From contig JAPLCP010000169.1 of assembly GCA_026392155.1 (NCBI GenBank), positions 1-54,793 on the forward strand: a stretch of DNA of 54,793 nt, written 5' to 3'. Below, in pieces: positions 10,541 through 45,221 of this stretch (the first letter of the stretch is position 1; each line of letters opens with the position of its first letter). The translations under genes and the position numbers were made by a program. Under the pieces are notes generated by a model that worked only from the letters and a program-made list of their open reading frames with translations, searched no databases and was not told the origin of the DNA. The stretch comes from Armatimonadota bacterium (GTDB lineage: Bacteria > Armatimonadota > Armatimonadia > Armatimonadales > Armatimonadaceae).

Positions 10541-11737
10541 TCAACGAGTGCTCAGTCGGTGAAGTGCCCAGCGTGCGTGCTCGCGCACCATCTCCGAGGG
10601 ATCGGTCTGGGCAACCAACGTCAGAGGCGCGAAAGCTTCTTGCCCTCCGACATTTCCCAGCGCCACACAGACATTGCGCCGTAGCCCCGTGCGGCCTGTG
10701 CGCAGGATCGGGCTTCCGGCAAAGCGCACCTCAAAGGCCTCGTCGGTGGCCAGAAGTACAAGTAGCTCTAGCAAGTCCACGCGCCCCTCGCCGCCGTAGA
10801 GTTTTTGCTCACGGGCCACCTGCGCCTTGTCGTTCCACGGGCACGCCGCGAGGCAGTCGTCGCAGCCGAAGATATGATCGCCCATGAGAGGCCGCAATTC
10901 TTCTGGGATGCTGCCGTGGAGCTCAATCGTGAGATACGAGATGCAGCGGCGTGCATCAAGTGTCATGGGGGCAACAATCGCGCCCGTCGGGCAGGCCGTA
11001 ATACAGCGTGTACATGTCCCGCAGTGGTGATGGGCAAACGGTGGGTCGGGCTCCAGCTTCAGCGATGTCAGAAGTGCGCCCAAAAAGAAAAAATTCCCGA
11101 GCTTGAGGGAAATTAAATTTGTGTGCTTGCCCTGCCACCCCAGCCCCGCCCGCGCCGCCAGCTCCCGCTCCCGGATCGGCCCCGAGTCCGTGTAGCCCCG
11201 GCTGACCGTCCCCGGAAACTCCTCCGCCAACCAATCACGCAGCGTGTTGAGCTTGTCCCACATGACCCTATGGTAGTCCGCGCCCCGTGCATAGCGTGCG
11301 ATGAGCCCTCCTCCCCTTGTCCCTCCTCCCCCTGCCCCTCCTCCCAACCCTGCGGAGGCAGGGAGGGAGAGGGGAGAATTCCCGTCTCTGACTCCCCTCC
11401 TCCCGGGATCGGGAGGAGGGGCAGGGGGAGGAGGGTACGGAAAATCGTAGCTTTGGGCGACGACGATCACGCTTCGGGCTTTTCCCAGCAACTTCTGTGA
11501 GTTGAGCGGGCCACCGCGCAGGCGCTTGCGGGTCTTGAGGTAGCTCATCTCGCCGTGGTAGCCTGCCTCCAGCCATGCATCCACAAATGCCGCGTGGCCG
11601 GGTGCGGCAGGCGTGGTAAAGCCCACATCATCAAAGAGCGTCAGCGCATACTCACGGACGATCTCGTGGATTCCCCCGGTGAGAGCGGGGGAACTGGAGA
11701 GCGTCGCAGGCTCCGCGGCAAAGGGCGTGCCGCCCAT
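10541..11737 (-). CDS. queG: epoxyqueuosine reductase with in-frame repeat insertion
   Basis: The last step of queuosine synthesis: reduction of epoxyqueuosine in tRNA, using cobalamin and two 4Fe-4S clusters. The clusters are bound by CGTCTRCITACP and CDDCLAACPW; RGYTDSGPIRERELAARAG and GWQGKHTNLIS are family motifs, and the C-terminus has HEAT-like repeats. 398 codons are counted from ATG 11737. That start lies inside a family B repeat, and no other ATG/GTG lies before the conserved region (about 23 onward), so the first 20 residues are repeat-derived. Residues about 102-144 are a Pro/Gly-rich insert encoded by a family A repeat, placed between SYDFP and LIARYARG, which are nearly contiguous in relatives. 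The reading frame is intact. Confidence 0.85.
   Translation of the reverse strand: MGGTPFAAEPATLSSSPALTGGIHEIVREYALTLFDDVGFTTPAAPGHAAFVDAWLEAGYHGEMSYLKTRKRLRGGPLNSQKLLGKARSVIVVAQSYDFPYPPPPAPPPDPGRRGVRDGNSPLSLPASAGLGGGAGGGGTRGGGLIARYARGADYHRVMWDKLNTLRDWLAEEFPGTVSRGYTDSGPIRERELAARAGLGWQGKHTNLISLKLGNFFFLGALLTSLKLEPDPPFAHHHCGTCTRCITACPTGAIVAPMTLDARRCISYLTIELHGSIPEELRPLMGDHIFGCDDCLAACPWNDKAQVAREQKLYGGEGRVDLLELLVLLATDEAFEVRFAGSPILRTGRTGLRRNVCVALGNVGGQEAFAPLTLVAQTDPSEMVREHARWALHRLSTR
11306..11435. repeat. C/G-rich palindromic repeat, family A, copy 2, inside queG
   Basis: The arms 11321-11345 and 11411-11435 are a perfect 25-bp inverted repeat (start CCCTCCTCCCCCTGCCCC). A second palindrome, CCCCTCCTCCC/GGGAGGAGGGG, lies within. 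The element is in frame with queG and encodes about 43 residues without a stop. Confidence 0.85.
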
Positions 11738-11807
11738 AAAATTCGGTATGGGCGGCACGCCCTTCGTAGCCGAAGGCTCTCCAGCCCCGCCGTTCTCATC
11801 GGCGGGG
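11677..11807. repeat. multi-hairpin repeat, family B, copy 2
   Basis: The central perfect 16-bp stem GGGCGTGCCGCCCATA (11723-11738) pairs with 11747-11762 around the loop AAATTCGG. Outer hairpins CCCCCG-GTGAGAG-CGGGGG and CCCCGCCG-TTCTCAT-CGGCGGGG are each joined by CTGGAGAGC. It fills the gap between the phosphatase stop and queG and supplies the queG start codon. Confidence 0.85.
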
Positions 11808-12248
11808 TTATCGGTTTGCTTCAATAAACTCTGCCCAGACACCATCGGGGTGCCAGATATCGTGTAGATCGTCGAGCGCCTCAGTCTCATCATAGCCGTT
11901 ACGCAAGCGCCAGAGGTAGAGAAAGGCCGATGCCCGCATGTTCGCCGCGCAGTGGACAAAGAGCTTTTGACCCTGGCGTGCGTCCATCGCGGTGCAGAAT
12001 GCGTCGAGATTCTCACGCGTCGGGTTGCGCCAGATCACGGGGATGCGCACGAACTCCATACCCAGTGCCATAACTTTCTCAGGCTCCTCGGGGAACCAAG
12101 CATCAGACTCATCGGGCAGGAGGTTGAGGACGCACACAAAGCCCTCTGCGGCGATGATCTCGAGCTGCTCGGGCCGCACCAGCCCCGAGGTTCCGAGGCT
12201 GTCGTCCAGCCAGAGAAAGTCGCGAATTTGGTGTAGGCTCTGGCTCAT
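11808..12248 (-). CDS. protein tyrosine phosphatase-like protein
   Basis: 146 residues with a dual-specificity/DUF442-like phosphatase fold. The P-loop is VHCAANMRASAF (Cys100, Arg105). Only four residues separate Cys and Arg, instead of five in standard CX5R phosphatases. I recall a bacterial subfamily with 'VHCxxNxRVSAF', so this may be native, but activity should not be assumed. The ATG overlaps the stop of the PhyH gene (ATGA), indicating cotranscription and probably coupled translation. The TAA stop is directly joined to a family B repeat. Confidence 0.75.
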   Translation of the reverse strand: MSQSLHQIRDFLWLDDSLGTSGLVRPEQLEIIAAEGFVCVLNLLPDESDAWFPEEPEKVMALGMEFVRIPVIWRNPTRENLDAFCTAMDARQGQKLFVHCAANMRASAFLYLWRLRNGYDETEALDDLHDIWHPDGVWAEFIEANR

Positions 12249-32243: not shown

Positions 32244-35111
32244 CTACTCCACCACGGTTGTGTCGCCCCAAGAGAGGCCCGTTTTTACCTCGACATCCAA
32301 GCTCACGGAGAGTTCGTAGGCGTTTTCCATGCACGCCTTTACTTTTGTGCCCAGCTCAAGGGCCGCGTCTTGGTCTACCTCAAAGAGCAGCTCATCGTGC
32401 ACTTGCAAGAGCAGTAGTGCCGGAAGCTCCGTGGCCTTCAGCATCGCTGCGACCGAGAGCATGGCTTTTTTCATAATATCCGCACTCAGCCCCTGGATCG
32501 GCATGTTCGCCGCTGCCCGCTCCGCCGCCTGACGGAAGTTAAACACGCGATTGTTGATATCAGGAATCCAGCGCCGACGGCCAAAGAGCGTCTGGACATA
32601 GCCGTTTTTCTGGGCAAACTCAATCGTCGCGTCTAAGTAGACCTTCACGCCTGGAAAGCGCGCAAAGTACGACTCTTTCAGCGCCTTCGCCTCACCCTGT
32701 GGGATTTTCAACTGCCGCGCCAAGGCAAAGTCCGAGATGCCATAGAGCACCGCGAAGTTCACCGTCTTGGCCGCGCGCCGCATCTCACTCGTCACATCAT
32801 CCGGCGAAACCCCATATACCTTGCTTGCTGTGTACTTGTGAATGTCCTCGCCCGACGTAAACGCGGCCCGCATATCGGCATCGTTGGCCACGTGGGCAAA
32901 GATGCGCAGCTCGATCTGCGAGTAGTCCGCCGAGAGCAGTATGCGTCCCGGCGGCGCGACAAATGCCTTACGAATCTCCCGCCCCATAGCCGTGCGTATC
33001 GGAATGTTCTGAAGATTGGGGGACGATGACGAAAGCCGCCCCGTCGCCGCCACGGTCTGGTTCAGCGACGTGTGCACCCGCCCATCGCTTCTCACCAGCG
33101 CCGGCAGCGCGTCGGCGTAGGTGCTCTTGAGCTTCGCCAGCTCACGGTACTGCAACACATCCGCGACAATCTTATGCTCCAGCGCCAGCGGCTCTAGCAC
33201 GTCCGCATCGGTCGAGTAGCCGGTCTTGGTCTTCTTCCCCGACGGCAGCTTCAGCGTCTCAAAGAGCACTTCCGCCAGCTGCTTCGGCGAGTTCACCGCA
33301 AACACCACTCCCGCCTCCGCATGGATCGCCTTCTCTAGCGTCGCCACTTGGCTCCCCATCTCCGCCGCAATCTTGCCGAGCAATACCGTGTCTAAAAGTA
33401 GCCCCGTGCGCTCCATCTCCGCAAGCACTGGCACCAGCGGCAGCTCTAAATCGCGCAAAAGCTCCGCCAGCTTGTCCTTTTCGAGCCTTGGTGTGAGCTC
33501 TTTCTCAAGCACAAAGATCGCCTCTGCCTCCGCACAGACCCGTGCCTTATCTTGCTCAAACACCGCTGTGGGATTGAGGCTTGCACGCTCCTTCTTCTCC
33601 AGCGCAGGCGGCAGCTCACGTCCCGCATGGTTCTGCGCAATGTCCCGCAAGGGGTAGGTCGCCCGCTGACCAGCAAAGAGCAAATACGCCGCCAGCTCCG
33701 CATCAAAGGCAAGCGACGAAACCGCAAAATCATGCCGCTGCAAGACTGTGATGTCCGTGCGTCCATCGTAGGTCAGCTTACCGATGGTGGGGTCTGCGAG
33801 AAGTATAGCGGCGGCTTTGGGGCCATTTGTTCCCACAACTTCCCCCCCATCCCCCGCCCGGCGGGGGGGATTAGAGGAAGGGGCATCAAATAGGCCGCCA
33901 AGCTCGGCTCCCCCGCTTGCGGGGGCGAGGGGGGCGATGGGACAGTAAAACACGCGCCCGCCTCCGGTGGCGATGGCAATTCCATAGAGCCGCGCATCCA
34001 GCGCCGAGGCTTCGTCGGTGTGCAGCCGGATGGCAAACTTGCCCACCGCCTTCGCAGCAGCAAGCAGTTCTGCAACATCTGCCGCTGTCTGCACCTCCGT
34101 AACAGTGAGCAAGACCGCCTTGGCCTCTGCCACAACCTCCCCTCCTCCCAAACCTGCCTCCCAGGATTGGGAGGAGGGGCCGGGGGAGGAGGGATTCACG
34201 GAGGAGGGATTCACGGAGGAGGGTTGCGTCGCCTTCGCCTCCACCCGCCGTGCGAGGGTGCGGAACTCCAGCTCATCGAAGAAGACCTTAATCGCGGCGT
34301 AGTCCGGAGCGTACTCAGGGCAGGCTTCGGGAGTCGGGAGCACCGCTGCCTCGGGGAGGGGAATGTCCTTGCGGATCACCGCCAGCTCTTTGGAGAGGCG
34401 CATCTTATCTAAGTGCTCCCGAATCTTCTCCTGAATACGGGCAGGCGTCACTTCACCCAGCCGCGCCTCGATCTCCTCCACCGTCGGGAAGGCTTGCAAG
34501 AGCGTTGTCGCGGTTTTCTCGCCAATGCCGGGGACGCCGGGGATATTGTCGCTAGAGTCGCCTTTTAGGGCGCGATAGTCTGTGAGCTGACTCGGCTTCA
34601 GCCCGTAGCGCGTCTCAACCGCAGCCTCATCGTAGAGCACGGTGTCCGTGATGCCCTTAATGGTGGTGAGAACTTGAATGCCCGGCTGGACAAGCTGGAG
34701 CATGTCCGAGTCGCCGCTGACAATCAGCACGTCGTAGCCCGCTGCCTTGCCTTGCGTGGCGAGCGTCCCGATAATATCGTCGGCTTCGTAGCCCGGCGCT
34801 TCCAGCGAGATCGCCCGAAAGACATCGGCGAGGCGCCGCGCATACGGTCCCTGCTGAATGAGATCATCGGGCGTGTCTTGGCGCGTCCCCTTGTACTCCG
34901 TGAACAGCTCGTGGCGAAACGTCGGCTCGTGCGTGTCCCAGGCGCAGAACATCAGATCGGGCGCATGTTTCTCGGTCACGCCTAGCAGCATCTGCGTGAA
35001 GCCAAAGAGCGCGTTGGTGGGCAGGCCCTTGGAGTTGGTGAGCGAGCGCACCGCAAAAAAGCCCCGGAAAAGCAGCGAGTTGCCGTCGAGGAGAACGAGT
35101 GTTTTAGCCAT
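32244..35111 (-). CDS. polA: DNA polymerase I with two in-frame repeat insertions
   Basis: 955 residues. Residues 1-290 are the 5'-3' flap nuclease (VLLDGNSLLFRGFFA, YEADDIIGTLA, SGDSDMLQL). Residues 325-520 are a 3'-5' exonuclease-like fold that lacks the DxE motif (FAIRLHTDEA), so proofreading is probably absent, as in Taq. The polymerase domain has motif A LSADYSQIELR, motif B KTVNFAVLYG and motif C QVHDELLFEV. Residues about 296-324 and 389-424 are Ser/Pro/Gly-rich inserts encoded by family A repeats, the first in the linker between nuclease and exonuclease-like domains. The start at 35111 is set by homology and by TACAAT 8 nt upstream; the frame runs further upstream but there it is noncoding. 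Confidence 0.95.
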   Translation of the reverse strand: MAKTLVLLDGNSLLFRGFFAVRSLTNSKGLPTNALFGFTQMLLGVTEKHAPDLMFCAWDTHEPTFRHELFTEYKGTRQDTPDDLIQQGPYARRLADVFRAISLEAPGYEADDIIGTLATQGKAAGYDVLIVSGDSDMLQLVQPGIQVLTTIKGITDTVLYDEAAVETRYGLKPSQLTDYRALKGDSSDNIPGVPGIGEKTATTLLQAFPTVEEIEARLGEVTPARIQEKIREHLDKMRLSKELAVIRKDIPLPEAAVLPTPEACPEYAPDYAAIKVFFDELEFRTLARRVEAKATQPSSVNPSSVNPSSPGPSSQSWEAGLGGGEVVAEAKAVLLTVTEVQTAADVAELLAAAKAVGKFAIRLHTDEASALDARLYGIAIATGGGRVFYCPIAPLAPASGGAELGGLFDAPSSNPPRRAGDGGEVVGTNGPKAAAILLADPTIGKLTYDGRTDITVLQRHDFAVSSLAFDAELAAYLLFAGQRATYPLRDIAQNHAGRELPPALEKKERASLNPTAVFEQDKARVCAEAEAIFVLEKELTPRLEKDKLAELLRDLELPLVPVLAEMERTGLLLDTVLLGKIAAEMGSQVATLEKAIHAEAGVVFAVNSPKQLAEVLFETLKLPSGKKTKTGYSTDADVLEPLALEHKIVADVLQYRELAKLKSTYADALPALVRSDGRVHTSLNQTVAATGRLSSSSPNLQNIPIRTAMGREIRKAFVAPPGRILLSADYSQIELRIFAHVANDADMRAAFTSGEDIHKYTASKVYGVSPDDVTSEMRRAAKTVNFAVLYGISDFALARQLKIPQGEAKALKESYFARFPGVKVYLDATIEFAQKNGYVQTLFGRRRWIPDINNRVFNFRQAAERAAANMPIQGLSADIMKKAMLSVAAMLKATELPALLLLQVHDELLFEVDQDAALELGTKVKACMENAYELSVSLDVEVKTGLSWGDTTVVE
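33839..33945. repeat. C/G-rich palindromic repeat, family A, copy 4, inside polA
   Basis: Two adjacent GC palindromes: CCCCCGCCCGGCGGGGG near 33850, and CCCCCGCTTGCGGGGG near 33910. They encode APASGGAELGG and PSSNPPRRAGDGGEV in the polA frame, a segment absent from typical PolI proteins. Confidence 0.7.
34136..34225. repeat. C/G-rich palindromic repeat, family A, copy 3, inside polA
   Basis: A 13-bp perfect inverted repeat (CCCCTCCTCCCAA at 34139-34151, partner at 34167-34179) followed by two tandem copies of a 15-bp unit GAGGAGGGATTCACG (34186-34215). The array encodes PSSVNPSSVNPSS in frame with polA. Confidence 0.85.
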
Positions 35112-45091: not shown

Positions 45092-45221
45092 TAAAATCAG
45101 GCGTCTCCAGTGGCTTCGTTCCTCAGCCGCAAAGCCCGTGCCGGGCTATTAGATTCGGTAGCCTGGCACGGGCTTTCCAGTGTGAAACGCTACGACACGC
45201 CCCGTTCACGGGGCGGGAGCG
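45092..45221. repeat. multi-hairpin repeat, family B, copy 5
   Basis: The central stem GCCCGTGCC...GGCACGGGC encloses GGCTATTAGATTCGGTAGCC; the right hairpin is CGCCCCGTTCACGGGGCG. On the minus strand it starts directly at the yceI stop and contains CTGGAAAGCC, a variant of the CTGGAGAGCC in copies 1-3. Confidence 0.8.

Follow-up and report, generated by a model that had tools for sequence, protein, structure and literature searches.

A DNA polymerase I gene that carries two G/C-rich palindromic segments within its reading frame raises the question of where these segments come from and how the enzyme accommodates them. The gene, polA (32244..35111, minus strand), encodes 955 residues and lies in the window, i.e. 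the whole stretch of 54,793 nucleotides analysed here, from an Armatimonadota bacterium (genome G000). The 5'-3' exonuclease and DNA_pol_A domains of PolA are each complete, and the 3'-5' exonuclease-like domain gave a weak match under its Pfam cut-off. When the inserts were left out, comparison with the homologue of the same genus (G001) gave a dN of 0.087 and a dS of 0.757. This ratio ruled out a pseudogene: polA is intact, and purifying selection acts on it outside the inserts. Distant named polA genes provided alignment depth and a control set. The protein structure was predicted with AlphaFold2 from a 32-row alignment. A pLDDT below 50 was found only at residues 297-329 and 397-426, which are the stretches encoded by the REPs, and both are therefore predicted to be disordered.

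Site 1 (34125..34226, minus strand) codes for residues ~297-329 and consists of one family-B REP with extra 15-bp head units. These residues form the linker that joins the 5' nuclease and the exonuclease-like domain. A C-rich head with the 15-bp tandem units at 34170-34223 is followed by an imperfect hairpin at 34139-34179, an 18-nt inverted repeat that is 94% complementary with 5 nt between the arms. Site 1 is a single REP unit and not a pair. Site 2 (33836-33936, minus strand) codes for residues ~390-424 and contains two G/C palindromes in opposite orientation. Unit A2 (33836..33882, minus strand) is a family-A REP that has a different form in G001, where another repeat is found, and unit A1 (33908..33935, minus strand) is a palindrome common by descent to G001. 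Between both family-A units the codons for GGLFD (33885..33899, minus strand; residues 405-409) are kept as an older loop motif, and site 2 looks like two insertions around this motif rather than one inserted pair. The reading frame is kept through both inserts. The original prediction of in-frame palindromic repeats in polA, the first of them in the interdomain linker, was therefore borne out, and the repeats belong to dispersed families. An LF or LW motif is present in this PolA loop in 50 of 85 homologues of the phylum; six of these read QxSLF/QxSLL-like, e.g. QSSLFDEP, which recalls the sliding-clamp binding motif, with REPs on either side.

The genome was searched with the polA segment, and at least 65 matches were obtained for family B, nearly all of them to site 1, with the consensus CCCTCCTCCCCCnGCCCCTCCTCCCAAyCCTGGGAGGA...GGGGAG. 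Many of the copies form inverted pairs that are tens of bases apart. For family A, represented by site 2, at least 48 matches were found at a loose cut-off and ~30 with E <0.01. These copy numbers are lower bounds, and 42 family-B and ~28 family-A sites were studied. Outside coding-like frames lay ~35 of the 42 B sites and 18 of the ~28 A sites, and the others (~7 and 10, respectively) were in frame within coding-like sequence. Both families thus show what generally characterises REPs and REPINs: many dispersed copies, a mainly extragenic location and frequent pairs in opposite orientation. That related repeats occur between genes, as had been claimed, is correct for most copies elsewhere in the genome; within the window, the only other family-B copy that we found (11306-11435) is in frame in queG. 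A REP copy leaves on average 4.3 of the 6 frames open, compared to 3.3 for dinucleotide shuffles and 3.0 for random segments, which helps the copies to survive.

Mobility was judged from the presence or absence of the repeats between relatives. In G001, whose PolA is 85% identical, site 1 is a shorter linker of other sequence, and at site 2 one palindrome is shared by descent and the second is replaced by another repeat; both segments have dispersed relatives within G001. In G011, polA carries three elements over the two sites, all of them dispersed in that genome (at least 66 matches). Palindromic polA inserts were also found in G008 and G118, and no palindromic insert was seen at the two sites in the polA of G005, G007 and G009. 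The inserts were thus absent or different in close relatives, and their absence in the latter three genomes ruled them out as a conserved feature of PolA.

Ordinary low-complexity expansion of G/C-rich linkers, with no mobile repeat involved, might produce such segments, since the loop length varies across the phylum and runs of C and G can grow by slippage. We regard this as highly improbable. Dozens of other places harbour near-identical copies in which head and hairpin are the same, and the same picture emerges in independent genomes, each with dispersed repeats of its own. In addition, strong hairpins are concentrated in the two polA sites: the 85 polA genes examined from the phylum yielded 7 strong hairpins, 5 of them within sites 1 and 2, which make up ~10% of the gene, and all 5 come from the order of the window. 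When polA was shuffled with synonymous codons, only 1 of 9 strong hairpins fell into the two sites, which ruled out chance or codon bias as their origin.

A search of the genome for other in-frame copies, as the original prediction had called for, identified about a dozen further genes with family-A or family-B copies. The second host in the window is queG (10541..12016, minus strand), which codes for epoxyqueuosine reductase with the Pfam domains QueG_DUF1730 and Fer4_16 and carries an inverted, REPIN-like family-B pair in frame (11306..11435, minus strand). In G001 this loop is occupied by a family-A-like pair, in G011 by a third family. When compared to the REPs next to a G001 DUF559 gene, the queG insert of G001 scored 25.5 (random maximum 14); the insert of G011 scored 33.0 (random maximum 13), and in G007 no REP was detected in the loop (10.5, random maximum 12.5). 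The further hosts include two 2-oxoacid dehydrogenase acyltransferases, a PutA-type proline dehydrogenase, LpxC, hydantoinase B, a double amidohydrolase, a WD40 protein, a MetE-like protein and an AAA protein; of the in-frame hosts, L262 is doubtful as a gene, and L016 and L030 are based on short matches. In most hosts the insert is located in a loop or between domains, and it is often absent from the G001 homologue, most cleanly in the MetE-like gene. REP-like peptides in putA, GH20-like and AAA genes of G001 or G011 were at most weakly above background by the DNA score, and the queG case is clear. An apparent in-frame insert at L279 was rejected, as the frame spans the DUF559 gene and a gap towards an argininosuccinate-synthase-like start. 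The queG loop and the polA loops are permissive sites that are re-used by different REP families.

Di Nocera et al. (2013, PMC3733652) described in-frame REPs from several phyla and listed DNA polymerase I as one of the host proteins. The claim of a new, independent case is therefore only partly right, because the phenomenon, including DNA polymerase I as a host, was already published. The same work noted that REPs are numerous in genes for replication and repair and suggested a selected function for those in repair genes. Together with the presence of REPs in the same two PolA loops in several lineages, this might mean that the inserts were selected in PolA for a changed activity or fidelity. 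We consider this improbable, as the host genes are diverse (acyltransferases, LpxC, PutA, amidohydrolase, queG), the sequences at the sites differ among relatives or are absent (G005, G007, G009), and the PolA segments are predicted to be disordered. Both PolA inserts are recurrent and tolerated, and most likely they have no useful role for PolA.

The new observation is that families A and B each flank, in inverted orientation, a gene for a DUF559 (Vsr-like) nuclease. One inverted family-A pair brackets the DUF559 gene L279/L286 and one inverted family-B pair brackets L284. Inverted repeats border each of the four DUF559 genes of the genome on both sides and come from four different families; the weakest flanks were those of L283 (15.5), which is without the promoter-like motif described below. 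Site 1 of polA scored 41.5 against the REPs that flank L284 (random maximum 11.5), and the family of unit A2 scored 21.5 against those that flank L286 (random maximum 15). Correspondingly, the polA inserts at sites 1 and 2 of G000, site 2 of G001, site 2 of G011 and site 1 of G118 match REPs that flank a DUF559 gene of the same genome. No clear match to DUF559-flanking REPs was obtained for site 1 of G001, site 2 of G008 and site 1 of G011.

In this genome and ten relatives, inverted flanks exceeded the 99% control level at 22 of 34 DUF559 loci, the highest score being 98.5, and all 22 belong to the 27 strong domain matches (>~60 bits). The control comprised 1000 random segments with a 99% level of 13 and a maximum of 14. 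Since random segments lie mostly inside genes, the flanks of 137 ordinary genes of this genome were used as a second control and scored at most 15.5. In a set of 49 genomes from other phyla, 13 of 21 DUF559 loci with >85 bits scored above the 99% level of the controls (14.5; control maximum 19), including loci of Geomonas, other Deltaproteobacteria, Bacteroidota and a Rhodospirillaceae; the 9 weakest loci all failed to do so. About a fifth of the strong DUF559 loci near the lineage of the window, and a third elsewhere, are without inverted flanks. By sequence, the only structure match was 3hrl, an endonuclease-like protein, and the bracketed genes share their domain family with the DUF559/Vsr-like endonucleases (PF04480; PDB 3hrl; Caulobacter VsrA, PMC12907096). 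No link between DUF559 and REPs was found in the literature searched, which excluded preprints and most subscription papers. The bracketing of DUF559 genes by two in-frame REP families points to a kind of bacterial mobile element that has so far gone unrecognised.

In the literature, REPs are partnered by RAYTs (PMC3116915, PMC8266576), and the genome contains three RAYT-like loci that are flanked by inverted repeats (scores 48-67) and have the same promoter-like motif. The RAYT (Y1_Tnp) transposases might therefore move the REPs, with DUF559 serving another role, e.g. in Vsr-like mismatch repair. This is unlikely in our view, but it is the strongest of the alternatives: the repeats at the RAYT genes belong to other families, e.g. 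AAAGCCCGTGCCGGGCTA, no copy of family A or B was found within 1.5 kb of the three loci, and A and B each bracket a DUF559 gene, a link that recurs in other phyla. It could also be that DUF559 is a passenger that merely tolerates REP-rich surroundings. By analogy with the RAYTs, which are thought to move their own REPs, we propose that DUF559 would mobilise the REPs that bracket it. Altogether, the polA inserts are probably copies of families A and B that were mobilised by DUF559 and survived in frame in permissive loops re-used across lineages.

A promoter-like motif may indicate when the nuclease would act. The sequence TTATCAGA-N15-CCGTT occurs in 14 exact copies in G000 and 11 in G001, with ~0.1-0.2 expected per genome by base counting, and the pattern read backward matched 0-3 times per genome even when one mismatch was allowed. 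In G000, the motif was found upstream of three of the four DUF559 genes and all three RAYT-like loci, and in G001 upstream of DUF559 and RAYT genes. It also precedes recA, recQ, a comEA-like gene, comM, radC and rpsF in G000, G001 or both. The loci with TT(A/G)TCAGA-N15-CCGTT are L378, L382, L386, L392, L394, L396, L398, L400, L402, L404, L407, L408 and L410 in G000, and L377, L381, L385, L388, L391, L395, L399, L412, L416 and L417 in G001. From the sequence we read these genes as a candidate regulon for repair and recombination or DNA uptake that would include the REP-associated nuclease genes.

In the mechanism that we propose, the DUF559 nuclease would recognise and nick the hairpin of the REP at times of recA, comEA and comM activity, probably while the DNA is single-stranded. 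The REP or REP pair would then be copied to a new site. In-frame copies in a flexible linker or loop would survive, since these repeats are short, contain relatively few stop codons and code for disordered peptide rich in Pro, Gly and Ser, and other insertions into genes would be purged. Such selection would explain why different families re-use the permissive loops in different lineages.

The families A and B resemble the intragenic GTAG and CGTC REPs (PMC3733652) as short high-copy palindromes, often in inverted pairs, with some copies in frame in genes that include repair genes. Unlike these, neither a GTAG nor a CGTC tag was found in the copies of A and B, as judged by inspection and not by a statistical test. 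They also bracket DUF559 genes instead of RAYTs, and different families re-use the same loops in related genera. With the REPIN-RAYT system (PMC3116915, PMC8266576) they share the inverted REP pairs as non-autonomous units and a single-copy nuclease-like gene bracketed by its own family, but the bracketed gene is the Vsr-like DUF559 and not an HUH tyrosine transposase, and the RAYTs here have other REPs. The in-frame insertion into unrelated protein genes is similar to the Rickettsia palindromic elements, a likeness of behaviour and not of membership; A and B are without the CGTC tag, and no dedicated nuclease is known for the Rickettsia elements (PMC3733652).

REPs rank among the most common repeats of bacteria, and the CGTC REPs, a whole superfamily, are said to be without a transposase (PMC3733652). 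DUF559, whose label still marks it as a domain of unknown function, may be the missing partner of such families, and the link of one gene per family makes it a concrete candidate. A wider proposal, which we put forward tentatively and could almost as readily accept as doubt, is that DUF559 proteins serve as the nucleases dedicated to a second large REP class in several phyla, parallel to the RAYTs. Here they would be expressed with RecA, ComEA and ComM, the REPs would spread via single-stranded DNA during repair or uptake, and they would recurrently supply housekeeping proteins with new disordered peptide. The motif common to recA, recQ, comEA, comM and radC offers a time of action that can be tested. 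In polA and queG, REPs have repeatedly added disordered peptide to housekeeping enzymes and left the enzymes unbroken.

Palindromes of a third family (AAAGCCCGTGCCGGGCTA-like) are present at 11721-11764 and 45131-45176 of the window and resemble the repeats that flank the RAYT genes L069 and L070; the former falls within the N-terminal portion of the queG open frame, whose genuine start is uncertain. The motif was also found at L389 (G000 C87:49142), followed by an apparently decayed gene whose start is like that of the G001 RAYT L401 and which is not open, and at L403 (G001 C7:108267), followed by a truncated, apparently decayed DUF559 gene. Finally, the similar secreted proteins L406 (G000) and L397 (G001) carry the motif, with a borderline PEP-CTERM match in G001.
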